DNA of 64,000 nt, from NCBI RefSeq assembly GCF_023147585.1, contig NZ_JAHXOZ010000009.1:62001-126000 (forward strand), in the 5' to 3' direction. The number at the start of each line of letters is the position of its first letter. Within the stretch, counting starts at the first letter, position 1. The stretch is from Micrococcus sp. EYE_212. GTDB lineage: Bacteria > Actinomycetota > Actinomycetes > Actinomycetales > Micrococcaceae. The notes under the pieces were generated by a model that made no database searches, was not told where the DNA came from, and saw nothing but the letters and a program-made list of their open reading frames with translations. The position numbers and the translations under genes were made by a program. Below, in pieces: positions 467-21,204 of the stretch.

Positions 467-3295
467 ATGGGTGAGACCGCCGCGGCCGAGACCGGCACCT
501 CCGAGACCCGGCCGCGCCTGCTGGTGCTGGACGGCCATTCGATGGCGTTCCGCGCCTTCTACGCGCTGCCGGCCGAGAACTTCGCGACCGACACCGGTCA
601 GCACACCAACGCGGTCTACGGCTTCACGGCGATGCTGCTGACGATGATCCGCCAGCAGGCGCCCACCCACGTGGCGGTCGCCTTCGACCTCTCCGGGCCC
701 ACGTTCCGCTCCGCCGAGTACGCGGAGTACAAGGCGGGCCGCTCGGAGACCCCCGCCGAGTTCGCGGGGCAGATCGAGCTGACCGTGAAGGTCATGGAGG
801 CCCTCGGCATCCCCACCCTCACGGTGGAGGACTACGAGGCGGACGACATCGTGGCCACGCTCTCCGCCCGCGCCGAGGCCGCGGGGTGGGACGCCGTCGT
901 CGTGTCCGGGGACCGGGACGCGTTCCAGCTCATCTCCGAGCACACCACGGTCCTGTACCCGAAGAAGGGCGTCTCTGACATCCCGCCGATGGACGCGGAC
1001 GCCGTCATGGCCAAGTACGGCGTGAGCCCCGCCCAGTACCCGGACCTCGCCGCGCTCGTGGGGGAGTCCGCGGACAACCTGCCGGGCGTGCCCGGCGTCG
1101 GCCCCGGCTTCGCGGCCAAGTGGATCAACGCCTACGGCGGGCTCGAGGGCGTGCTGGAGAACGCGGACAGCATCACCGGCAAGAAGGGCGAGGCCCTGCG
1201 CGCCCACCTCGAGGACGTGCGGCGCAACCGCCGGCTCAACGCCCTCGTGCGGGACCTCGACCTGCCCGTCGACCTCGAGGCCATGGCGCTGACGATGCCG
1301 GACCACGACACCGTGTCCGAGCTCTTCGACGCCCTCCAGTTCAACCGCATCCGCGACCGCGTCTTCGAGGTGTTCTCCGAGCGCCTCGGCGCGGACGCCC
1401 CCGCCGCCGAGGTCGAGGAGGCCCCCGAGCACGTGGTCGCGACGACGGCCGCGGACCTGGGCGGGTTCCTCGCCGCCCACGCCGGCGCGCTGCTCGGGGT
1501 GCACGTCGTCGTGGACGGCCCGGACATGCTGCCGAAGCGCAAGGTGCCCGTGCCGGGCACCCACGGCACCCCCGTCGGGGTGGCGTTCGCCGCCGACGAC
1601 GCCGCGCTCTACGTGGACCTCGACGCCGAGGGGCCGGACGCGGAGCTCATGGCGGCCGTGCGCGACGCGCTCGAGGACGCCGGCACCGCCAAGGCCGTGC
1701 ACGACCTCAAGCGCACCGTGAAGGCGCTGGCCGCCCCGACCCGGCCGGCCGGCCTGGGGGAGGGAGCCGTGATCGGCGGGGTCGAGGACGACGTGCTCCT
1801 CTCGGCCTACCTGATCCAGCCCGACCGCCGGGACGTGGACCTGGCCTCGCTCGCCGAGGCGCACCTGCGCACTCCGCTCGCCGCGCCGGCCACGGGGCAA
1901 CCCGCCTCCGCCCAGGGCGAGCTCGACCTCGACGGCGGAGCCGCCGCGGCCGAGCGCGCGCAGCGGGCCACAGACGCCGTCCGCGCCGCGTGGGTGGTCC
2001 GCCGCCTCTCCGCCGAGTTCACCCCCCAGGTGCTCGAACGCGGCGCCCAGCGGCTGCTCCAGGAGATGGAGATCCCGCTCGCGCGCCTGCTCGCGCGCAT
2101 GGAGCTGGCCGGGATCGCCGTGGACCGCGACCACCTCGAGGCGCTGCGCGCCGACTTCGCCGAGCGCGCGGACGCCGCGAAGGAGTCCGCGTGGGCCTCG
2201 GTGGCGGAGGAGACCGGGGGCATGGAGGTCAACCTCGGCTCCCCGAAGCAGCTGCAGGAGGTCCTCTTCGAGCGCCTCAACATGCCGCGCACCCGCAAGA
2301 CGAAGACCGGCTTCTCCACGGACGTGGACTCGCTGCAGGACCTGCTCGAGCAGACGCAGCACCCCTTCCTGGAGAACCTCATGGCGCACCGCGACGTCAC
2401 GAAGCTCCGCCAGACCGTGGAGGGCCTGCTGGAGACCGTGGCGCCGGACGGGCGCATCCACACCACCTACTCGCAGACCGCCGCGGCCACGGGCCGCCTC
2501 TCCTCCCTGCACCCCAACCTGCAGAACATCCCTGTGCGCACCGAGGCCGGCCGACGCATCCGCGAGGCCTTCACGGCGGGCGAGGTGGACGGCACGGAGG
2601 CCGTGCTGCTCTCGGCGGACTACTCGCAGATCGAGATGCGCATCATGGCCCACCTCTCCGAGGACGCCGGCCTCATCGAGGCGTTCAACATGGGGGAGGA
2701 CCTGCACAGCTTCGTCGGCTCGCAGGTGTTCGGCGTGGACCCGCACGAGGTGAGCGCGGAGCAGCGCTCCAAGGTCAAGGCGATGAGCTACGGGCTCGCG
2801 TACGGACTGAGCTCGTTCGGCCTGTCCAAGCAGCTGAAGATCTCGGTGGACGAGGCCCGCGGCCTGATGAAGGGCTACTTCGACCGCTTCGGCGGGGTGC
2901 GGGACTACCTGCGCGACGTCGTCGCCCAGGCCCGGCAGGACGGCTTCACCTCCACCATCGAGGGGCGGCGCCGCTACCTGCCGGACCTGAACTCGGACAA
3001 CCGCCAGCTGCGGGACATGGCCGAGCGCGCCGCCCTCAACGCCCCGATCCAGGGCTCGGCGGCGGACATCATCAAGCGGGCCATGCTGGACGTGCAGGCC
3101 GGCCTTGAGGAGCAGCGCCTGCGCTCCCGCCTCCTGCTCCAGGTCCACGACGAGCTCATCCTCGAGGTCCCGCGCGACGAGCTCGCGGCCGCCACGGCCC
3201 TGCTCAAGGAGCGCATGGGGCGGGCCGCGGACCTCTCCGTGCCGCTGGACGTCCACGTCGGCGAAGGAAGGACCTGGCATGCCGCAGCCCACTGA
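467..3295 (+). CDS. polA: DNA polymerase I
   Basis: Family A DNA polymerase for Okazaki fragment maturation and repair synthesis, 942 aa, a normal length for actinobacterial PolA. The N-terminal 5'-3' flap exonuclease covers about residues 15-310, with VLDGHSMAFRAFYALP, a DYEADD acidic cluster and GDRDAFQL. The middle region (about 330-480) keeps the 3'-5' exonuclease fold but I do not see the catalytic DxE set, as is usual in actinobacteria, so it is probably not proofreading. The polymerase domain has motif A DYSQIEMR (near 718), motif B KVKAMSYGLAYG (near 769) and motif C QVHDELILEV (near 891). The ATG follows a good ribosome binding site. The last 17 bp overlap the next gene, so the two are translationally coupled. 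Confidence 0.97.
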   Translation: MGETAAAETGTSETRPRLLVLDGHSMAFRAFYALPAENFATDTGQHTNAVYGFTAMLLTMIRQQAPTHVAVAFDLSGPTFRSAEYAEYKAGRSETPAEFAGQIELTVKVMEALGIPTLTVEDYEADDIVATLSARAEAAGWDAVVVSGDRDAFQLISEHTTVLYPKKGVSDIPPMDADAVMAKYGVSPAQYPDLAALVGESADNLPGVPGVGPGFAAKWINAYGGLEGVLENADSITGKKGEALRAHLEDVRRNRRLNALVRDLDLPVDLEAMALTMPDHDTVSELFDALQFNRIRDRVFEVFSERLGADAPAAEVEEAPEHVVATTAADLGGFLAAHAGALLGVHVVVDGPDMLPKRKVPVPGTHGTPVGVAFAADDAALYVDLDAEGPDAELMAAVRDALEDAGTAKAVHDLKRTVKALAAPTRPAGLGEGAVIGGVEDDVLLSAYLIQPDRRDVDLASLAEAHLRTPLAAPATGQPASAQGELDLDGGAAAAERAQRATDAVRAAWVVRRLSAEFTPQVLERGAQRLLQEMEIPLARLLARMELAGIAVDRDHLEALRADFAERADAAKESAWASVAEETGGMEVNLGSPKQLQEVLFERLNMPRTRKTKTGFSTDVDSLQDLLEQTQHPFLENLMAHRDVTKLRQTVEGLLETVAPDGRIHTTYSQTAAATGRLSSLHPNLQNIPVRTEAGRRIREAFTAGEVDGTEAVLLSADYSQIEMRIMAHLSEDAGLIEAFNMGEDLHSFVGSQVFGVDPHEVSAEQRSKVKAMSYGLAYGLSSFGLSKQLKISVDEARGLMKGYFDRFGGVRDYLRDVVAQARQDGFTSTIEGRRRYLPDLNSDNRQLRDMAERAALNAPIQGSAADIIKRAMLDVQAGLEEQRLRSRLLLQVHDELILEVPRDELAAATALLKERMGRAADLSVPLDVHVGEGRTWHAAAH

Positions 3296-4697
3296 CACCA
3301 CCGCCCCTCGAGAGTCCTCCGGCCCCACGGCGCCGCCCGATCCGGCCGGCGCGCTGGCCGAGAACGGGCTCGAGCTGCGCCCGGTGCCCTCCCCGTGGGA
3401 GGCCGGGCTGGCGGACCCCGAGGCGCCGTTCGACCTTGCGCGCCGCTGGGACGACGCCCCCGCCGTCCGCCGGCACACGGCCGTCCTGCAGCGCACCTTC
3501 CACGAGGTCGGCGACCCGGAGCTGCGCCTGGCCGACCGCTTCATCGGCGTCGAGCAGGGCGACCGCCGCCGGCTGGTGGGCGTCTACCCTGTGGGCGCCG
3601 ACCCGGACGCCGTCGACCCGGTGGGCACTCTCGTGGACTTCACGAAGGACCTGAATGTGGGCGCCGGGCGCCTCCTGCCGGCCTGGTGCATCTCCGAGGT
3701 GACCGTCTCGCCCACGCACAGGCGCCGCGGGATCCTGCGCGCCATGATGTCGGACTCGCTGCGCCGCGCCCGTGAGGCGGGCGTGCCGATCGCCGCGCTC
3801 ACCGCCACCGAGGCCACCATCTACCGCCGCTTCGGCTTCGGCGTCTCCACGTACTACCGCTCCGTGTGGCTCGACGTCACCCGGGGGATCCAGCTGCGCG
3901 GCGGCCGCCCCGAGGGCGACTTCCGGTTCATCGAGCCCACCACGTCGGGCGAGCTGATCGAGGGCCTGTGGCGTCGGGCCTTCGAGGGACAGCTCGGCTC
4001 GGTCGAGCGCATCCGCTTCCACGCGGCCAAGGAGACGGACCGGGACCCGCGCGTGGACGAGGGCCGGCCGCAGGGGCTGCGCGGCGTCGTGTTCTCCGGC
4101 CCCGACGGCACGGACCGCGGCGTGGCCGTCTACCGGGTGACGGGGGAGACCTCCGAGCTCGTGGCGGACGAGCCCGTGACCGCCACCGTGGTGGCCCTGT
4201 GGGCCGCCGACGCCGAGGCCTACCGGGCCCTGCTGGAGTTCCTCGGCAACCTCGACCTCGTGGTGCGGCTGCGCCTGCCCTCGGTCCCCAACGACCGCAT
4301 GCTCGAGTTCCTCGTGCGCGACGAGTCCCGGATCTACACCCGCGGCGTCCACCACCACCTGTGGCACCGGATCCTGGACGTCGCCGCGTGCTTCGAGGCC
4401 CGTCCCTACCTCCACGACGGCGCCGTGGCCGTGACGGTCGAGGACGACCTCGGCCACGCGGCCGGCACGTGGGAGATCTCGGCGGCGGACGGCCGGGGGC
4501 GCGTCCGCCCGGCGGACGAGGACCAGGCCGAGCTGACCCTCGACGTGGCGGAGCTGGGCTCCGTGCTCCTGGGCGGGGTGCAGGCCGAGGTCATGCGCGA
4601 GGCGGGCATCCTGCGCGAGCACCGCCCCGGCGCGGCCACGGACCTGGACACGCTCCTGCGCCAGCCCCGCCTGCCCTTCGCCCTGACCGGCTTCTGA
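3279..4697 (+). CDS. Eis-like GNAT N-acetyltransferase, copy 1
   Basis: 472 aa, similar in layout to mycobacterial Eis: an N-terminal GNAT domain with the acetyl-CoA loop HRRRGILRAMM near residue 147 and ATEATIYRRFGFG, a second degenerate GNAT domain, and a C-terminal sterol-carrier-like domain. The protein ends in Phe (ALTGF). In Eis the C-terminal Phe carboxylate acts as catalytic base, so this supports an active Eis fold. Known family members acetylate amines on aminoglycosides, peptides or proteins; the substrate here is unknown. The ATG at 3279 is chosen because GAAGGAAGG lies just upstream. It overlaps polA by 17 bp. A 30-residue Pro/Thr-rich N-terminal extension precedes the conserved region. 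A paralogue follows 23 bp downstream. Confidence 0.88.
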   Translation: MPQPTDTTAPRESSGPTAPPDPAGALAENGLELRPVPSPWEAGLADPEAPFDLARRWDDAPAVRRHTAVLQRTFHEVGDPELRLADRFIGVEQGDRRRLVGVYPVGADPDAVDPVGTLVDFTKDLNVGAGRLLPAWCISEVTVSPTHRRRGILRAMMSDSLRRAREAGVPIAALTATEATIYRRFGFGVSTYYRSVWLDVTRGIQLRGGRPEGDFRFIEPTTSGELIEGLWRRAFEGQLGSVERIRFHAAKETDRDPRVDEGRPQGLRGVVFSGPDGTDRGVAVYRVTGETSELVADEPVTATVVALWAADAEAYRALLEFLGNLDLVVRLRLPSVPNDRMLEFLVRDESRIYTRGVHHHLWHRILDVAACFEARPYLHDGAVAVTVEDDLGHAAGTWEISAADGRGRVRPADEDQAELTLDVAELGSVLLGGVQAEVMREAGILREHRPGAATDLDTLLRQPRLPFALTGF

Positions 4698-4720
4698 CGC
4701 GTCCCGACCCAGGAGGACCC

Positions 4721-6034
4721 ATGCCCCCGCACCACGCCCACGACGACAGCCTCGCCGCGCACGGCCTGCAGCTGGTGGTGGCCCCGGGACGCGCCGGCGA
4801 CCCGGCGTTCGAGCGGCACACCCTGGCCGTCGAGCGGGGGTTCTACGAGGAGCCGCCCGCGGGCGAGTCGCTCGCGCAGCTGCTCGAGGCGGGGGAGGCG
4901 GACGGCCGGCGCATGGTCGACGCGTACGCCGCCGGAGACGACCCGGCCGCGTCCCGCCCCGTCGCCACGTTCGAGGACTTCCCGTCCGAGCTGACCGTCT
5001 CGCCCGGCGTCACCGTCCCCGCCTGGCTCATCAGCGCCGTGACCGTGGACCCGGGGTTCCGCCGCCGGGGGATCCTCCGGGCGCTCATGGGCCGCAGCCT
5101 CGCGGACGCGGCGGCGGCCGGGATGCCCGTCGCGGCCCTCACCGCCTCCGAGGCCGCGATCTACGGACGCTTCGGGTTCGGCGCCGCGACCCGCTGGCGC
5201 CGCACGCACCTCGACGTCCGCGGCGAGGTGCGGCAGCGCGGCGACGCGCCGGCGGGACGGGTCACGCGGGAGGAGCCGCGCGAGATCGGCCCCCTCGCCG
5301 ACGAGCTCTACCAGAGGGCCCGCCGCGCGACCCCCGGCGCCACTCAGCGACCGGCCATGACCGCGATCCGCTGGGAGGACCGCAGCCGGTTCAAGAACGA
5401 CGGCAAGGGCACCGGCCTCTACGCCGCCGTGCATCGGGACGCGGCGGGGCGGGCGCAGGGGATCGCGCTGTACCGTTTCAAGGGCTGGGACGTCGAGCCC
5501 CCCACGGTGACGATGGAGCTCTTCATCGCCCTCACCCCTGAGGCCCGCCGCGGCCTGCTCGCGCACCTCACGAGCCTCGACCTCGTCGAGCGGGTCGAGT
5601 GGGAGCGGGCCCCCGAGGCCGGATGGGTCGAGGCCCTCCTCGAGGACGAGCGCCGCATGCGCACCCAGCGCGACGGCGACGACCTCTACCTGCGGATCCT
5701 CGACGTGCCCGCCGCCCTCGGCGCCCGTGACGACCTGGGCGAGGGCGAGGTCGTCCTGACGGTGGCGGACCCGCTCGGCCACGCCGACGGAACGTGGCGG
5801 CTCGCGGTGCAGGAGGGCGCCGCGAGCGTGGCCGCGGCCGAGCCGGCGGAGGCCGATCTCGTGCTCGACGTGGCCGACCTGTCCGCGGTGTGGCTGGGCG
5901 GGCACGGGGCGGCGGGCGGGGCCGCGGCCCGCGTGGCGAGCGGCCTGGTGGAGGAGCGGGTGCCCGGCGCGGCGGACCGCCTGGACGCGATCCTGCGGCC
6001 CACGGCGCCCGTGCGGTCCCTGGTGGGTTTCTGA
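4721..6034 (+). CDS. Eis-like GNAT N-acetyltransferase, copy 2
   Basis: 437 aa paralogue of the preceding gene with the same architecture: AWLISAVTVDPGFRRRGIL forms the acetyl-CoA binding loop near residue 113, followed by ALTASEAAIYGRFGFG, and the C-terminal lipid-carrier-like domain ends in Phe (SLVGF), matching the Eis catalytic carboxylate. AGGAGG at 4711-4716 gives a strong ribosome binding site for the ATG at 4721. It is 23 bp behind copy 1 and very likely co-transcribed with polA and copy 1. The copies differ strongly outside the core motifs, so the duplication looks old and the substrates may differ. Any role in aminoglycoside or peptide modification is an inference from family knowledge. 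Confidence 0.87.
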   Translation: MPPHHAHDDSLAAHGLQLVVAPGRAGDPAFERHTLAVERGFYEEPPAGESLAQLLEAGEADGRRMVDAYAAGDDPAASRPVATFEDFPSELTVSPGVTVPAWLISAVTVDPGFRRRGILRALMGRSLADAAAAGMPVAALTASEAAIYGRFGFGAATRWRRTHLDVRGEVRQRGDAPAGRVTREEPREIGPLADELYQRARRATPGATQRPAMTAIRWEDRSRFKNDGKGTGLYAAVHRDAAGRAQGIALYRFKGWDVEPPTVTMELFIALTPEARRGLLAHLTSLDLVERVEWERAPEAGWVEALLEDERRMRTQRDGDDLYLRILDVPAALGARDDLGEGEVVLTVADPLGHADGTWRLAVQEGAASVAAAEPAEADLVLDVADLSAVWLGGHGAAGGAAARVASGLVEERVPGAADRLDAILRPTAPVRSLVGF

Positions 6035-9816: not shown

Positions 9817-12192
9817 ATGACCTCCCCGCTCACGCGCCTGCACGACGCCCTCCGGCTCCGCACCAGCCCGGCGATCTTCTTCGGCTCCCTCGGCCTCATC
9901 GTCCTCTTCACCGCGGCCATGGGGCTCTTTCCGGGCCCGGTGCAGCGCACCTTCGGCATCGTCGCCACGTGGCTGCGCTACGACGCCGGCTGGATCTACA
10001 CCCTGAGCCTCACCGTCCTCGTCGTCTTCATGCTCGGCCTGGCCTTCAGCCGCTATGGCCGGGTCAAGCTCGGCGACGACGACGCGGTCCCCGAGTACTC
10101 CGGCCTCGTCTGGTTCGCCATGATGTTCGCCGCCGGCGTCGGCGCCGTGCTCATGTTCTGGGGGATCGCGGAGCCGATCAACCACTACGCGAACCCGCCG
10201 CTGGCCGGCACCGAGCCCTTCTCCGACCAGGCGGCGTCGGAGGCGATGAGCATCGCCAACTTCCACTTCGGCATCCACATGTGGGCGATCCTGCTGGTGC
10301 CGGGGCTGTGCTTCGGCTACTTCACGTACAAGCGCAAGCTGCCCCCGCGCGTGTCGTCGGCGTTCCAGCCGCTGCTGGGCGACGGCATCCACGGCCCCGT
10401 CGGCAAGGCCATCGACATCATCGCGGTGGTCTCCACGGTCTTCGGCCTCGGCGTGTCCGTGGGCCTGGGTGCCCTGCAGCTGAACTCCGGCATGAACGAG
10501 GTGCTGGGCACGCCCGTCGCCCCCTGGGTCCAGGCCCTGATCCTCGCCGTGATCACCGCGGTGGGCGTCGCCTCCGTCCTCGCGGGCATGGACAAGGGCG
10601 TCAAGCGCCTCTCCTACGCCAACATCATCCTCGCGATCGCCCTCCTGGTGTACGTCCTCATGTGGGCGGGCTCGAGCATGGACGTCATCCGCGGGACGGT
10701 GCAGGCCGTCGGCGAGTACGTCACCGCACTGCCCCTGCTCTCCACCTACAACGACACCTACAACTCGGGCGCCTGGTCCGGCGACTGGACGGTCTTCTAC
10801 TGGGCCTGGACCGTGACGTGGGCCCCGTTCGTCGGCATGTTCTTCGCGCGCATCTCCCGCGGCCGCACCATCCGCCAGTTCGTCGCCGCCGGACTCGGCC
10901 TGCCGACGGCGTTCGTGATCATCTGGATGGGTGTCTACGGCCATTCGGCGTTCCAGTCGGACCGGGCCACGGCCCCGTCTCCGGGGACGGGCGGAGACCT
11001 GACCCGGACCATCGTGGAGGAGGGCAACGTGCAGGCCGCGCTGTTCCAGCACCTGCAGGGCACCCCCCTCTCCCTCGGCGCCGCCGTCGTCGCGCTCGTG
11101 GTCATCTCGCTGTTCTTCATCACCTCGATCGACTCCGGCGCCCTGGTCATGGATGCCATGGTCAACGGCCACGAGGACCCTGCCCCGCGCATCCAGGGCG
11201 TCGTCTGGGCCGTGTCGATCGGCGCCGTGTGCGCCGCGATCATCCTCACGGCGGGGGAGGACGGCCTGGCCGCCCTCCAGGAGGTCATCATCGTCATCGG
11301 CCTGCCGATCCTCATGATCACCGTCGTCCAGGTGGTGCTCCTCGTTCAGGCGCTCCGTGAGGACGCCGGCGCCGTCCGTCCGATGCGCACCCGCCAGTGG
11401 AAGAAGGTGCTCCCCGCCGAGGAGTACCGCCGCCGCGCCGCGGAGGACGGCGCCGACGTGTCCGACTACGTCGTGCGCCCCGAGTTCGAGGTGGGCACGG
11501 AGCCGGAGTACGACACCCACACGCCGAAGACGTGGCACCAGCAGCGTGCGGCCGCCGAACACGCCCTCCTGACGGTCGGCCTGACCGGCGGCGTCGCGGC
11601 CGGCCGGACCGCGGTGGGGGAGGAGCTCGAGCGGCTCGGTGCCGTCGTCGTCGAGTTCGACGACCTCATGGGCGAGGTCCTCGTGCCCGGCAGTGCCGTG
11701 CTCGACGAGCTGCGCGGGGTGTTCGGCGAGGAGATCGTGCACGCGGACGGCTCCCTCGACGTGCGCGCCCTCAACCGCCTGACCACGGAGAGCACGACGG
11801 CGCGCCGCCGCATGTACGAGATCGTCGCGCCGGCGGTGCGCACCGAGGCCGACGCCCGGGCCAGGGCCGTCGGGGAGGACGCCGTGCTGGTGATGGACCT
11901 CGCGCTCCTGACCGAGACCGGCTCCGCCCGCGAGTTCGACCAGGTGCTCGCGGTCTCCGCCCCGGCCGAGCTGCGCGTCGCCCGCCTCATGGACTCCCAC
12001 GCGATGAGCCGCGAGCGGGCCTGGGCGTTCATCGACGAGGAGGCGGCGGACGAGGAGCGCGCCGAGGTCGCGGACACGGTGCTCGAGAACGCCGGCACCC
12101 TCGAGGAGCTCCGCGACGAGGTCCGGGCATACTGGGACGCGAGGATCCAGCCCGTCGTCGACGCCGCCGGTGCCTCCCACCCTGCCCGCTGA
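9817..12192 (+). CDS. BCCT osmolyte transporter fused to a degenerate CoaE-like domain
   Basis: 791 aa in one unbroken frame. Residues about 1-520 are a betaine/choline/carnitine transporter with about 12 membrane segments and the family signatures MMFAAGVGAVLMFWGIAEP and WTVTWAPFVGMFFARISRG; it imports compatible solutes with Na+ or H+. After an acidic cytoplasmic linker (to about 580) comes a complete CoaE-like fold: GLTGGVAAGRTAV (Walker A Lys changed to Arg), VVEFDDLMG, IVAPAVR in place of the IVHPRVR of real CoaE, and LALLTETG. The loss of Lys, the His-Pro pair and the lid arginines suggests it no longer phosphorylates dephospho-CoA. The genuine coaE starts 17 bp downstream, so the domain probably arose by tandem duplication and fusion. 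An osmosensory or nucleotide-sensing role is only a guess. Confidence 0.9.
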   Translation: MTSPLTRLHDALRLRTSPAIFFGSLGLIVLFTAAMGLFPGPVQRTFGIVATWLRYDAGWIYTLSLTVLVVFMLGLAFSRYGRVKLGDDDAVPEYSGLVWFAMMFAAGVGAVLMFWGIAEPINHYANPPLAGTEPFSDQAASEAMSIANFHFGIHMWAILLVPGLCFGYFTYKRKLPPRVSSAFQPLLGDGIHGPVGKAIDIIAVVSTVFGLGVSVGLGALQLNSGMNEVLGTPVAPWVQALILAVITAVGVASVLAGMDKGVKRLSYANIILAIALLVYVLMWAGSSMDVIRGTVQAVGEYVTALPLLSTYNDTYNSGAWSGDWTVFYWAWTVTWAPFVGMFFARISRGRTIRQFVAAGLGLPTAFVIIWMGVYGHSAFQSDRATAPSPGTGGDLTRTIVEEGNVQAALFQHLQGTPLSLGAAVVALVVISLFFITSIDSGALVMDAMVNGHEDPAPRIQGVVWAVSIGAVCAAIILTAGEDGLAALQEVIIVIGLPILMITVVQVVLLVQALREDAGAVRPMRTRQWKKVLPAEEYRRRAAEDGADVSDYVVRPEFEVGTEPEYDTHTPKTWHQQRAAAEHALLTVGLTGGVAAGRTAVGEELERLGAVVVEFDDLMGEVLVPGSAVLDELRGVFGEEIVHADGSLDVRALNRLTTESTTARRRMYEIVAPAVRTEADARARAVGEDAVLVMDLALLTETGSAREFDQVLAVSAPAELRVARLMDSHAMSRERAWAFIDEEAADEERAEVADTVLENAGTLEELRDEVRAYWDARIQPVVDAAGASHPAR

Positions 12193-12209: not shown

Positions 12210-12848
12210 ATGTCCGAGCCCCCCGCCCCCGTCGCCCACCGTCCCCGCGTCCACGTGGGGCTCACCGGGGGCATCGCGGCCGGCAAGTCGGCCGTGGCCC
12301 GGGTGCTCGAGGAGCGCGGCGCCCTGCTGGTGGACTCGGACGCACTGGCCCGCGCCGTCCTCGAGAAGGGGACGGAGGGCCTCGCCGCCGTCCAGGACGC
12401 GTTCGGGGACCGGGTGATCACCGCCGACGGGGAGCTCGACCGGGTCGCGCTGGCCCGCATCGTGTTCGGCGACGCGGGCGAGCGGGAGCGGCTCAACCGG
12501 ATCGTGCACCCCCGGGTGCGGGAGATGGCCCGCGGGATCGTGGCCGAGGCGGGCCCGGACGCCGTCGTGGTCCAGGACGTGCCGCTGCTCGTGGAGACCG
12601 GCCAGGCGGACGCCTTCGACCTCGTCGTCGTCGTGGAGGCCCCGCTCGAGGAGCGGATCCGGCGCATGACGCAGGACCGGGGGATGAGCCGGGAGGACGC
12701 CGAGGCGCGCATCGCCGCGCAGGCGAGCGACGCGCAGCGCCGCGCGGCCGCCGACGTCGTGATCGTCAACGACGCCGACCTCACGCGCCTGGCCTCCGCC
12801 GCGAACCAGGTGTGGGACCGGTTCCTCGCTCCGCCCGCTGCGCCGTGA
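12210..12848 (+). CDS. coaE: dephospho-CoA kinase
   Basis: 212 aa. Catalyses the last step of coenzyme A synthesis, ATP-dependent phosphorylation of the 3'-OH of dephospho-CoA. The Walker A loop GLTGGIAAGKSAV (17-29) is intact, followed by LLVDSDALAR with the catalytic Asp, RIVHPRVREM, DVPLLVETG and the lid RMTQDRGMSREDAEARIAAQ. Length and motifs are standard. AGGAGA precedes the ATG at 12210. It lies 17 bp behind the BCCT-CoaE fusion, whose C-terminal domain is its degenerate relative, and is probably in the same transcript. CoaE beside uvrB is common in actinobacteria. Confidence 0.96.
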   Translation: MSEPPAPVAHRPRVHVGLTGGIAAGKSAVARVLEERGALLVDSDALARAVLEKGTEGLAAVQDAFGDRVITADGELDRVALARIVFGDAGERERLNRIVHPRVREMARGIVAEAGPDAVVVQDVPLLVETGQADAFDLVVVVEAPLEERIRRMTQDRGMSREDAEARIAAQASDAQRRAAADVVIVNDADLTRLASAANQVWDRFLAPPAAP

Positions 12849-17877: not shown

Positions 17878-18669
17878 ATGACCCACCACCACCACGACGC
17901 CGACTCCCCGGCTGCCCTGGCCCGCGCCGACTTCCGTTCCGGCCTCGTCCGCCCGACGTCGGGCCTGGCCCCGGGCCGCACGCAGGCCAATCTCGTGGTC
18001 CTGCCGCGGGACTGGGCCTTCGACATGCTGCTGTTCGCCCAGCGCAACCCCGGCCCCATGCCCCTGCTGGATGTCACCGAGCCGGGAGAGCCGACGACGT
18101 CGTGGGCACCCGGCGCGGACCTGCGCACCGACCTGCCGCTCTACCGCGTGTGGCGCGGCGGCGAGCTGGTCGAGGAGGTCTCGGACGCGACCGACCACTG
18201 GGGCGAGGACGCCGTCGCCTTCCTCATCGGCTGCAGCTTCGGCTTCGAGGCCGCGCTGCAGCGGGCCGGGGTGCCCGTGCGCAACCTGGACCAGGGGCGC
18301 AACGTGGCGATGTACCGCACGGACCGTCCGCTGCGCCCCGCGGGGCGGATGCGCGGCGAGCTCGTGGTCTCGATGCGTCCCGTGCCGCCCGAGCTCGTGG
18401 CGACGGCCGTCACCGTCAGCGCCGCCGTGCCGTTCGCCCACGGCGCCCCCGTGCACGTCGGCGACCCCTCCCGCCTCGGCGTCGCCGACCTCGCCGCGCC
18501 GGACTACGGCGAGGCCACGGACCTCGAGCCGGGCGACGTCCCCGTCTTCTGGCCGTGCGGCGTCACCCCGCAGCGGGCGCTCGAGGTCTCCCGGCCGCCG
18601 TGGGCCATCACGCATGCGCCGGGGCACATGTTCATCACCGACGCCGTGGAGGGGGCGGCGCGGGTCTAG
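17878..18669 (+). CDS. DUF1445 putative hydro-lyase / D-glutamate cyclase-like protein
   Basis: 263 aa. Hallmarks of the DUF1445 (YcsI/putative hydro-lyase) family are clear: [55 protein letters not shown] and [12 protein letters not shown] near the C-terminus. The related mammalian protein is a D-glutamate cyclase converting D-glutamate to 5-oxoproline; whether this enzyme does the same is unknown. The N-terminus contains a His run (MTHHHHDAD). The 84 bp upstream includes the AT-rich stretch CATATAAGCA, probably its promoter. Its TAG stop is shared with the -10 hexamer of the next gene. Confidence 0.85.
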
Positions 18670-18672
18670 ACT
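18667..18672 (+). promoter_or_regulatory. -10 hexamer for the first terC
   Basis: TAGACT begins with the stop codon TAG of the DUF1445 gene, so stop codon and promoter share bases. It would give a leader of about 28 nt with GAAAGGA as ribosome binding site. Confidence 0.5.
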
Positions 18673-18706
18673 GACGGCCGCCCCGCCGACGAAAGGACCC
18701 CCGTCC

Positions 18707-19750
18707 ATGGACGTTCTCAGCCCCGCCTTCGAGGTCGGCACCCTCGTGGTGCTCGGCCTCATCCTGCTGCTGGACCTGCTCTACGTCGCGCGGCGGCCCC
18801 ATGAGCCCTCCATGAAGGAGGCGGGCCTGTGGATCGGCTTCTACGTGACGCTCGCCCTCGTCTTCGCGGGCCTGCTCTTCGTCCTGGGCGACGCCCAGCA
18901 CGGCACGGAGTTCCTTGCCGGCTGGGTCACCGAGTACAGCCTGAGCGTGGACAACCTGTTCGTCTTCCTCATCATCATGGCCAAGTTCCAGGTGCCGCGC
19001 CGGTACCAGCAGGAGGTCCTGATGGTGGGCATCATCATCGCCCTCATCGCGCGGGCCGTCTTCATCGCGATCGGCGCGGTGGCCATCGAGCACCTCACGT
19101 GGGTGTTCTACATCTTCGGAGCCTTCCTGCTCTGGACCGCATGGCACCAGCTCAACGACGACGACGACGGCGAGGAGTCCGAGCCCGGGATCGTCGCCCG
19201 GCTCACGCGCCGGCTCAACGTGGCCCCGGACTACGACGGGAACAGGCTGCGCACCACCGTGGACGGCAAGCGCATGTTCACCCCCATGGTGGTCGTGTTC
19301 ATCACCATCGGCCTGACGGACGTCATGTTCGCGGTGGACTCGATCCCGGCGATCTTCGGCCTCACCCAGAACTGGTTCATCGTGCTGACGGCCAACATCT
19401 TCGCCCTCATGGGCCTGCGCCAGCTCTACTTCCTGCTCGGCGGGCTCATGGACCGCCTGGTGTTCCTCAAGCACGGACTCGCGTTCATCCTCGCCTTCAT
19501 CGGCGTGAAGCTCATCCTCCACGCCCTGCACGAGAACGAGCTGCCCTTCCTCAACGGCGGCCAGCCCGTCACCTGGGTGCCGGAGATCTCCACGTTCGTC
19601 TCGCTGGCCGTCATCCTGGGCACCCTCGTGGTCGCCACCCTCGCCTCCCTGCTGTGGGGCAAGGCGCCCGAGGACGGGGCGGAGCCGGTCTTCCACGGCG
19701 CGCACCGCATGCAGGACATCGCGGAGCGGGCGGAGTCGGACGGCCGTTGA
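18707..19750 (+). CDS. TerC family membrane protein, paralogue 1
   Basis: 347 aa integral membrane protein with about nine hydrophobic segments. The two TerC signatures with buried acidic residues are present: EYSLSVDNLFVFLIIMAKF near 76-94 and DVMFAVDSIPAIFGLTQ near 205. Between the halves sits an acidic loop (NDDDDGEESEP). TerC/Alx proteins export Mn2+ or load it onto secreted enzymes in other bacteria, and some are linked to tellurite resistance. It has its own promoter and a 28-nt leader without a riboswitch, unlike paralogue 2, which follows 200 bp downstream. The two differ in regulation and in the C-terminal tail. Confidence 0.92.
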   Translation: MDVLSPAFEVGTLVVLGLILLLDLLYVARRPHEPSMKEAGLWIGFYVTLALVFAGLLFVLGDAQHGTEFLAGWVTEYSLSVDNLFVFLIIMAKFQVPRRYQQEVLMVGIIIALIARAVFIAIGAVAIEHLTWVFYIFGAFLLWTAWHQLNDDDDGEESEPGIVARLTRRLNVAPDYDGNRLRTTVDGKRMFTPMVVVFITIGLTDVMFAVDSIPAIFGLTQNWFIVLTANIFALMGLRQLYFLLGGLMDRLVFLKHGLAFILAFIGVKLILHALHENELPFLNGGQPVTWVPEISTFVSLAVILGTLVVATLASLLWGKAPEDGAEPVFHGAHRMQDIAERAESDGR

Positions 19751-19950: not shown

Positions 19951-21204
19951 ATGGAGATCACCGGTCTGACCTGGGGGCTGACGATCGCACTGATCGTGGG
20001 CCTCCTCGCCTTCGACTACTTCGCCCACGTGCGCAAGGCGCACACGCCCACCATCCGCGAGGCCGCGGTCTGGTCCGGCGTCTACATCGGCATCGCCCTG
20101 CTCTTCGGCCTCGTCTTCTTCGCGTTCGGGGACGCCCAGCACGCGGTGGAGTACTACACCGGCTACATCCTGGAGAAGGCGCTCAGCGTCGACAACCTCT
20201 TCGTGTTCCTGGTCATCATGGCCTCGTTCCGGGTCCCGCGCGACTACCAGCAGAAGGTGCTGCTGTTCGGCATCACCTTCGCGCTCATCTCCCGCACGGT
20301 CTTCATCCTGCTGGGCGCGGCCGTGATCTCGGTGTGGTCCGACGTGTTCTACCTCTTCGGCATCGTGCTCCTGATCGTGGCCGGCAACCAGCTCAAGGGG
20401 GAGCTCGCGGGCGACTCCGCCGAGGACGAGGCGGACAACGTGATGGTCCGCCTGGCCAAGCGCTTCCTCCCCGCCTCGGACTCGTTCGACGGCGACCGGC
20501 TGTTCACGGTGGAGAACGGCAAGAAGGTCATGACGCCGATGCTGCTGGTCATGGTGGCCATCGGCGCGACGGACATCCTCTTCGCCTTCGACTCCATCCC
20601 CGCCATCTTCGGCGTGACCCAGGAGGCGTACATCGTCTTCACGGCCACCGCGTTCTCCCTCATGGGCCTGCGCCAGCTGTACTTCCTCATCGACGGCCTC
20701 CTGGACCGCCTCGTGTACCTCTCGTACGGCCTGTCCGCGATCCTCGCCTTCATCGGCGTGAAGCTGATCCTCCACGCGCTGCACGAGAACAACCTCTCGT
20801 TCATCAACGACGGCCAGAACGTGTCGGTCGTGGAGATCCCCACGGTGCTCTCGCTGATCGTCGTCGTCGGCATCCTGGTGCTGACCGTGCTGGTCTCCCT
20901 GGCCTCGCCCAAGGGCCAGGCCCTGCGGACGCTGCAGAACGCGGAGAAGTTCTCCCACCGCTTCACCCAGCTCGACCCGCAGGCGCCCCTCGAGGAGCGC
21001 CGCGCGGCCGCCGAGAGGATGGACACCTGGACGGCCAAGGCCGAGCAGGTCGACCAGAAGTGGCGGGACAAGCTCCTGGACCACAAGGACCGCTACTCCC
21101 AGATCATCCGCACGGCGCACGAGACGCGCCTCTCCGACCCGGACTCGGCGGATCCGCGCGGCGTGTCCGAGGCGATCGTCCGCCAGGCCGGACCCCGCGT
21201 CTGA
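19951..21204 (+). CDS. TerC family membrane protein, paralogue 2 (riboswitch-controlled)
   Basis: 417 aa, 70 longer than paralogue 1. The TerC core has LEKALSVDNLFVFLVIMASF near 75-94 and DILFAFDSIPAIFGVTQ near 208. The last 90 residues or so form a hydrophilic cytoplasmic tail, rich in charged residues with heptad-like helical character, that paralogue 1 lacks. A likely Mn2+ exporter or metal-loading protein, supported by the yybP-ykoY-like RNA in its 5' leader. GAAAGG lies eight bases before the ATG at 19951. It converges with the S33 peptidase gene across a shared terminator. Confidence 0.92.
   Translation: MEITGLTWGLTIALIVGLLAFDYFAHVRKAHTPTIREAAVWSGVYIGIALLFGLVFFAFGDAQHAVEYYTGYILEKALSVDNLFVFLVIMASFRVPRDYQQKVLLFGITFALISRTVFILLGAAVISVWSDVFYLFGIVLLIVAGNQLKGELAGDSAEDEADNVMVRLAKRFLPASDSFDGDRLFTVENGKKVMTPMLLVMVAIGATDILFAFDSIPAIFGVTQEAYIVFTATAFSLMGLRQLYFLIDGLLDRLVYLSYGLSAILAFIGVKLILHALHENNLSFINDGQNVSVVEIPTVLSLIVVVGILVLTVLVSLASPKGQALRTLQNAEKFSHRFTQLDPQAPLEERRAAAERMDTWTAKAEQVDQKWRDKLLDHKDRYSQIIRTAHETRLSDPDSADPRGVSEAIVRQAGPRV

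Follow-up and report, generated by a model that had tools for sequence, protein, structure and literature searches.

The window analysed here, a stretch of 64,000 nucleotides from a contig of Micrococcus sp. EYE_212, contains a gene in which a transporter of the BCCT family is continued in frame by a domain resembling dephospho-CoA kinase (CoaE), and this gene is followed on the same strand by a genuine coaE. The features of the locus are as follows.

9817..12192, + strand: BCCT-CoaE fusion gene, 791 aa, one open frame, with full-length relatives found
9874..11364, + strand: BCCT transporter domain, residues 20-516 (Pfam PF02028, TIGR00842, Foldseek)
11365..11565, + strand: conserved cytoplasmic tail (from alignment) and flexible linker (low pLDDT at 559-579)
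11566..12189, + strand: CoaE-like domain, residues 584-791, 208 residues (PF01121, domain model, VIA match to 4i1v)
11605..11607, + strand: R597, replacing the Walker A lysine (alignment with CoaE)
11827..11829, + strand: A671, replacing the His of HPxVR (alignment with CoaE)
11983..11985, + strand: R723, matching the essential lid Arg140 and present in 36/36 fused domains
12022..12024, + strand: W736, a lid-helix tryptophan found in 36/36 fused domains and 0/61 true CoaE
12210..12848, + strand: genuine coaE, 212 aa, with every catalytic residue that was checked present

The frame opens with an ATG at 9817, its stop ends at 12192 and its 791 codons are uninterrupted, as an earlier note on this DNA had claimed when it described transporter and CoaE-like domain as one continuous frame. 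PF02028 matches residues 20-516 (E 9.4e-157, 522.8 bits versus a cut-off of 27), and searching the C-terminal domain against CoaE profiles, a check that the note had proposed, gave PF01121 on residues 586-763 (E 8.6e-35, 120.5 bits, cut-off 27). The true coaE lies where it had been placed, its start at 12210 being separated from the fusion stop by 17 bp. The fused domain also passes TIGR00152 (CoaE; 85.5 versus a cut-off of 65.55) and is therefore at risk of being annotated as an active kinase; with PRK03333 it scores 161.6, under the cut-off of 215. The tail that joins the two parts carries the motif RTRQWKxVLPxEEYxRRA ... RPExExGTEPE, which is common to fused and unfused relatives in an alignment of 15 fused and 10 unfused rows. 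No promoters or terminators were found between 9600 and 12960, in a search that is uninformative in a GC-rich genome. Elsewhere in the window, 18071-19750 and 19951-21204 hold adjacent paralogous membrane proteins which, judged by eye, have the look of the TerC family.

AlphaFold2 modelled the whole protein with a mean pLDDT of 85.2, with low confidence at residues 559-579, and the domain alone with a pLDDT of 91.7; the alignments used for the models contained true CoaE rows (10 of 35 for the whole protein and 20 of 36 for the domain, the other 16 being fused), which may favour a CoaE fold. When the domain model was searched with Foldseek, each of the first 30 rows was either a CoA synthase or a dephospho-CoA kinase, one of the kinases under the name TT1252, and VIA aligned 204 residues with ADP-bound CoaE 4i1v at Z 22.3 and an rmsd of 3.5, the first kinase other than CoaE following at Z 14.6. 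The claim of a full-length CoaE-like fold is thus borne out on the predicted model by PF01121, Foldseek and VIA, and the P-loop kinase fold, the absence of which the note had named as grounds for giving up its reading, is present in a domain model that matches CoaE 4i1v. For the full model, the first 50 rows listed by Foldseek were all BCCT structures.

The BCCT part scores 468.2 on TIGR00842, above the cut-off of 407.55. The best Foldseek match of its model is TmaT (8zxk_B, E 6e-31, TM-score 0.94 on the target), with BetP entries next, and in sequence, too, no solved structure is closer to the membrane part than TmaT (8zw8). In the portion of the TmaT study used here, an aromatic box of W146, Y154, W326 and W329 together with GXGXG is given as the mark of quaternary-amine carriers (PMC11708041). 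In the window protein W146 is replaced by F, Y154 by L and W326 by T, leaving only W329 of the box (the TmaT positions W151 and W325 are kept as well), and GXGXG reads GVGAV; by the reasoning of that portion (PMC11708041), the protein need not be a quaternary-amine carrier. The tryptophan of W326 and the third Gly of GXGXG are absent in all 24 relatives compared. The glycine-betaine equivalog NF047988 gave 442.7, under its cut-off of 650. Of the earlier description as a BCCT osmolyte transporter, the family therefore stands on both profile and fold, whereas carriage of an osmolyte or betaine is not established, given the F, L and T substitutions and the missed equivalog. An osmolyte substrate is still plausible, since the Corynebacterium relatives may be LcoP or EctP, which transport ectoine, proline and betaine. 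The idea that the carrier takes up a CoA precursor to offset missing pantothenate synthesis found no support, as panC (PF02569) is present in 27/27 family genomes with the fusion. The nine family genomes in which a panC match is absent (G011, G041, G065 and G088 of genus g12; G015, G045 and G069 of genus g15; G067 and G147) are all without the fusion, and in g12 and g15 this absence suggests a pantothenate requirement.

Roles for Lys14, Asp32, Leu114 and Arg140 of mycobacterial CoaE are known from mutagenesis, Arg140 being reported as essential in the part of the study relied on here (PMC3019153). The window copy carries R597 for K14, A671 for the HPxVR His, F738 for Arg155 and E742 for Gln159; the Walker Lys, the HPxVR His, the lid Arg155 and Gln159 (the Arg and Gln of 'ARIxxQ') are each invariant in 61/61 true CoaE. 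It keeps Asp32 (D615), Leu114 (L697) and Arg140 (R723). The numbers 155 and 159, and the division of the other positions into a donor side and an acceptor/catalytic side, are our own presumed reading of the family. Both the Lys to Arg change in Walker A and the change of IVHPRVR to IVAPAVR had been correctly read in the earlier note. Its lost lid arginine is correct for Arg155 but not for the essential Arg140, and its term degenerate suits the acceptor side of the window copy but not the fused domains generally, as six of the 36 keep all eight key residues (K14, S15, D32, His, L114, R140, R155 and Q159). These six, L014 from the metagenome-assembled genome (MAG) Micrococcus sp. Bu38 and L017-L021, all belong to group g4; R36 is changed in two of them (L020 and L021), and the fused domain of Micrococcus terreus is not among them. 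Across the 36 fused domains Arg140 is always kept, K14 is K in 24, R in nine, A in two and T in one, and 9 domains retain the HPxVR His, 22 Leu114, 14 Arg155 and 6 Gln159. The only change noted as common to all 36 is the tryptophan at window residue 736.

Among positions at which one residue is common to at least 58 of the 61 CoaE, that residue is retained by the 35 fused domains of the tree in 287/315 cells (91%) on the donor side and in 273/455 cells (60%) on the acceptor/catalytic side; the lid Arg and the VxN Asn are present in all 35. Judged from these aligned positions, residue loss is selective and concentrated on the acceptor/catalytic side, and the better preservation of the donor-nucleotide side fits the sensing role that the note had inferred, a plausible reading that thereby gains ground but stays putative. 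On a tree that was itself derived from these alignment columns, Lys14 requires at least three changes, and His, Leu114, Arg155 and Gln159 require at least two each. Most simply, they would be repeated losses from an intact ancestor; for Gln159, loss followed by regain would be equally short. Some losses are specific to lineages: His and Gln in Micrococcus and Dermacoccus; Leu114 in all Kocuria rows and Asp32 in 8 of those 11; and Gln in the Arcanobacterium-type domains (L149, L150 and L069), in which the Walker lysine is Ala or Thr and the HP motif and Leu114 are kept.

The search for BCCT-CoaE fusions across the Micrococcaceae that the note had proposed found them in 27 of 295 family genomes among the matches listed, with the fusion protein as query and fusions ranking first; named relatives are those among the best 80 of 588. 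By group, again among the matches listed, the fusion is present in 11/11 genomes of g1 (Micrococcus), 7/8 of g4 (including M. terreus) and 9/24 sampled genomes of g6 (including Kocuria species). The remaining 15 of the 24 g6 genomes lack it, so the fused domain is dispensable for life. A separate count of CoaE matches in the 295 genomes gave at least two in the same 27 genomes and in G024, G059 and G210; the second match of G059 falls under the cut-off, and the weak best scores of the two matches in G024 and in G210 suggest a split gene. Of the 27 family loci, single-contig chromosomes among them, 26 have an open frame, so that joining of two genes by a sequencing error, which would have undone the claim, was not found, and assembly error or split genes can be ruled out as the source of a fusion that occurs in 27 genomes. 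The exception is Kocuria marina KCTC 9943 (G103; L029/L088), with a frameshift inside the fused domain; a second K. marina record (L073) is open. Kocuria atrinae (L079) has a frame break in the BCCT part of its fused gene, and the Kocuria fused copies are strongly diverged.

In 27/27 family fusion genomes the fusion is followed, on its own strand, by a separate coaE. Two genomes carry tandem fusions, both copies upstream of coaE: G044 (L005) and a Micrococcus MAG (L012/L064), where the pair occupies L064:163-2541 and 2542-5082. A sample of 396 genomes of the order contained seven full-length fusions, two in g1, two in family f17 and three in family f3, and thus adds five fusion genomes beyond Micrococcus, of Dermacoccus type (f17, for example Dermacoccus abyssi, L065) and Arcanobacterium type (f3, for example Arcanobacterium bovis, L069). 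No further fusion lineage appeared in a class sample of 394 genomes at E <= 1e-200. In the three Arcanobacterium-type genomes the fusion lies apart from coaE: G295 (A. bovis) and G535 have the two on different contigs, and in G398 about 260 kb separates them. The neighbours of the A. bovis fusion, judged by eye, are polysaccharide deacetylase-like and amidohydrolase-like.

An unfused BCCT gene is linked to coaE in Rothia and in Kocuria palustris; in Rothia (L078, L080-L087) it is of the same subfamily and lies directly after coaE on the same strand. The neighbourhood of carrier and coaE is therefore wider than the fusion. The unfused proteins L077, L080, L082 and L087 stop at the fusion point or at most about 50 residues past it; these four were followed as far as their stop codons, and the remaining six unfused rows, cut at the match end, are uninformative here. 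A Pfam scan of L077 and L080 found no CoaE domain in either. Twelve translated frames of the gap of about 0.8 kb between BCCT and coaE in K. palustris (L077, and L030 of another genome) gave nothing convincing as a decayed CoaE remnant, the best profile matches being 6.3 bits (E 0.0037, mixed profile) and 3.4 bits (fused-domain profile). A related BCCT in a Trueperella MAG (L076), with 70% identity over residues 7-495, runs off the contig end.

When 35 fused domains were placed in one tree with 61 CoaE, all of them fell on one side of a single branch (35 versus 61, support 100/99), and an earlier tree of 86 rows gave the identical split of fused and unfused (100/98). The fused clade lies within a larger group that also holds the coaE of Micrococcus and g4 (100/98). 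The Dermacoccus fused domains nest within those of Micrococcus (99/93), whereas Dermacoccus coaE lies outside the larger group, which argues for lateral spread of the fusion; Kocuria coaE likewise lies outside, and the single Arcanobacterium-type coaE that was placed belongs to another lineage. The M. terreus fused domain (L015) clusters with those of Kocuria (100/99) and its coaE with g4. The single fused clade would be accounted for most simply by one coaE duplicate, fused once and then partly spread by lateral transfer. On the tree, the duplicate probably arose near the ancestor of Micrococcus and g4, with lateral moves at least to Dermacoccus and Arcanobacterium, and possibly the fusion was also transferred between M. 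terreus and Kocuria.

Selection was estimated as dN/dS by Nei-Gojobori count for 14 pairs of loci, giving 0.142-0.560 in the fused domain; coaE ranged over 0.104-0.308 and the BCCT part over 0.024-0.346. Between distant Micrococcus pairs the fused domain gave 0.36-0.56 versus 0.13-0.31 for coaE. By these counts the fused domain is under purifying selection, looser than that on coaE among distant Micrococcus.

The explanation that we favour, and to which we give about an even chance of being correct in full, is that the fused domain is a pseudoenzyme, a cytoplasmic domain that tunes the BCCT carrier, most likely by binding a nucleotide. A BCCT carrier that probably already lay beside coaE would have acquired a coaE duplicate behind its conserved cytoplasmic tail; in the fused copy the kinase fold and the greater part of the donor-nucleotide pocket would have survived, and the dephospho-CoA and catalytic site would have been partly lost in Micrococcus and at least one other lineage. 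The resulting non-catalytic cytoplasmic domain, on its flexible linker, may tune the transporter, with a nucleotide (ATP or ADP, or CTP) as the most likely ligand, and binding may alter the packing of three subunits or the contact between tail and carrier. We count in its support the fusion itself, the predicted fold, the single fused clade, retention away from coaE in other families, the purifying selection, the losses concentrated on the acceptor side and the tryptophan confined to fused domains; what we infer is that the window copy is no longer a kinase, that it binds a nucleotide and that it affects transport. In the sections of PMC10710835 drawn on here, BetP and ProP are described as controlled by their own C-terminal domains, and other transporters as having recruited domains of the CBS, UspA, PAS and cyclic-nucleotide types. 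Several points count against the proposed pseudoenzyme regulator. In 12 of the 36 fused domains R, A or T stands in place of the Walker Lys, which argues against ordinary ATP binding in those, and this loss in a third of the copies, taken with the failure of ATP alone to bind mycobacterial CoaE without dephospho-CoA, as stated in the part of PMC3123319 consulted, argues against a simple ATP sensor. The demands of folding may by themselves explain why R140 and the P-loop glycines are retained, and the higher dN/dS than coaE in distant Micrococcus pairs indicates looser constraint. The six intact-looking copies and the absence of the fusion from 15 of the 24 g6 genomes are counted on this side as well.

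A somewhat unlikely alternative is an inert structural add-on that binds no ligand and lends stability to the carrier or its trimer, or covers the tail. It would fit the replacement of the Walker lysine in at least three separate tree changes, the fusion-specific W736 and the fact that the best-kept residues may be those needed for the fold; the joint preservation of the donor pocket (91%; lid Arg and VxN Asn in 35/35) nevertheless exceeds what a scaffold would appear to need. Also unlikely is a scheme resting on analogy with CoaE itself, in which its ligand-controlled trimer switch is reused as an allosteric cap under a trimeric transporter and a nucleotide or CoA-pathway signal would gate uptake. 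In the parts of the sources used, mycobacterial CoaE is reported to move between trimer and monomer, shifted by dephospho-CoA and CTP (PMC3123319), and TmaT and BetP to be trimers (PMC11708041, PMC10710835), which makes such a cap an attractive idea; the g4 fusions with an intact-looking site (L014, L017-L021) would then be still-bifunctional intermediates. The same g4 branch is where a membrane-tethered, active dephospho-CoA kinase might persist, as the ancestor would have been, with the Micrococcus copies weakly active. The domains with all eight key residues (6/36), the 179 bits of the Bu38 domain (L075) on PF01121 and the D32, L114 and R140 of the window copy speak for this, but the window copy has K14 as R, His as A, R155 as F and Q159 as E, all invariant in 61/61 CoaE, and an intact coaE lies 17 bp away, so that we regard activity as distinctly unlikely.

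Partnership with that neighbouring CoaE, the domain hetero-oligomerising with it and so coupling transport to CoA synthesis or tethering CoaE at the membrane, is in our view very unlikely. Among the loci examined, those of Micrococcus, g4, Kocuria and Dermacoccus do have the fusion next to coaE, and mycobacterial CoaE forms trimers according to the portion of PMC3123319 used, but the Arcanobacterium-type fusions lie far from coaE, and the only coaE of this type placed in the tree comes from a different lineage. That the fusion is an artefact or a decaying passenger, genes joined by error or a fused pseudogene being lost, we consider extremely unlikely: the frameshift in one K. marina assembly (L029/L088), the frame break in K. 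atrinae (L079) and the strong divergence of the Kocuria copies are what one would expect of decay, but the frame is open in 26/27 family loci from separate assemblies, dN/dS is below 1 and the fusion is retained in other families.

The extra soluble domain is appended to a transporter and conserved across relatives. The pairing of BCCT and CoaE had been put forward as undescribed, and a search of the open-access literature, with hits judged by listing, likewise found no description of it. A transporter with a recruited regulatory domain, the plausible reading here, would be of a known kind, and going by that search it is the origin of the domain that is new. We know of no earlier case of a CoA-biosynthesis enzyme turned into a control domain of a transporter; if the regulatory role of the pseudoenzyme is true, this would be the first one known. 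As the relatives form a graded series from all eight key residues to strongly altered ones, the evolution of an enzyme into a regulator is directly testable here.

BetP of Corynebacterium glutamicum, also a BCCT with the same membrane fold, has a C-terminal extension that, to our knowledge, lacks a kinase-like domain. That extension is cytoplasmic and regulatory, as given in the part of PMC10710835 used, and in this BetP resembles the window protein, which differs in having a 208-residue enzyme-derived domain behind its conserved tail. The CBS domains of OpuA and other 'plug and play' domains (CBS, UspA, PAS, CNBD), in the account drawn on here, are alike in that a soluble domain of ligand-binding type has been recruited to a transporter, whereas the window domain derives from a metabolic kinase and its ligand is putative. 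Compared with TmaT, the trimethylamine transporter closest to the membrane part among solved structures by sequence (8zw8), the window protein has F, L and T for W146, Y154 and W326 and GVGAV for GXGXG, and TmaT, at 529 aa, is too short for a CoaE domain. The unfused BCCT of Rothia and K. palustris share 56-60% identity in the BCCT part, the same tail and linkage to coaE, but end at or shortly past the fusion point. With the CoaE of mycobacteria and E. coli the window domain shares the fold, the family profile, the lid Arg140, Asp32 and Leu114, and it departs from them in the Walker Lys, the HPxVR His, Arg155 and Gln159 and in being fused to a membrane protein.
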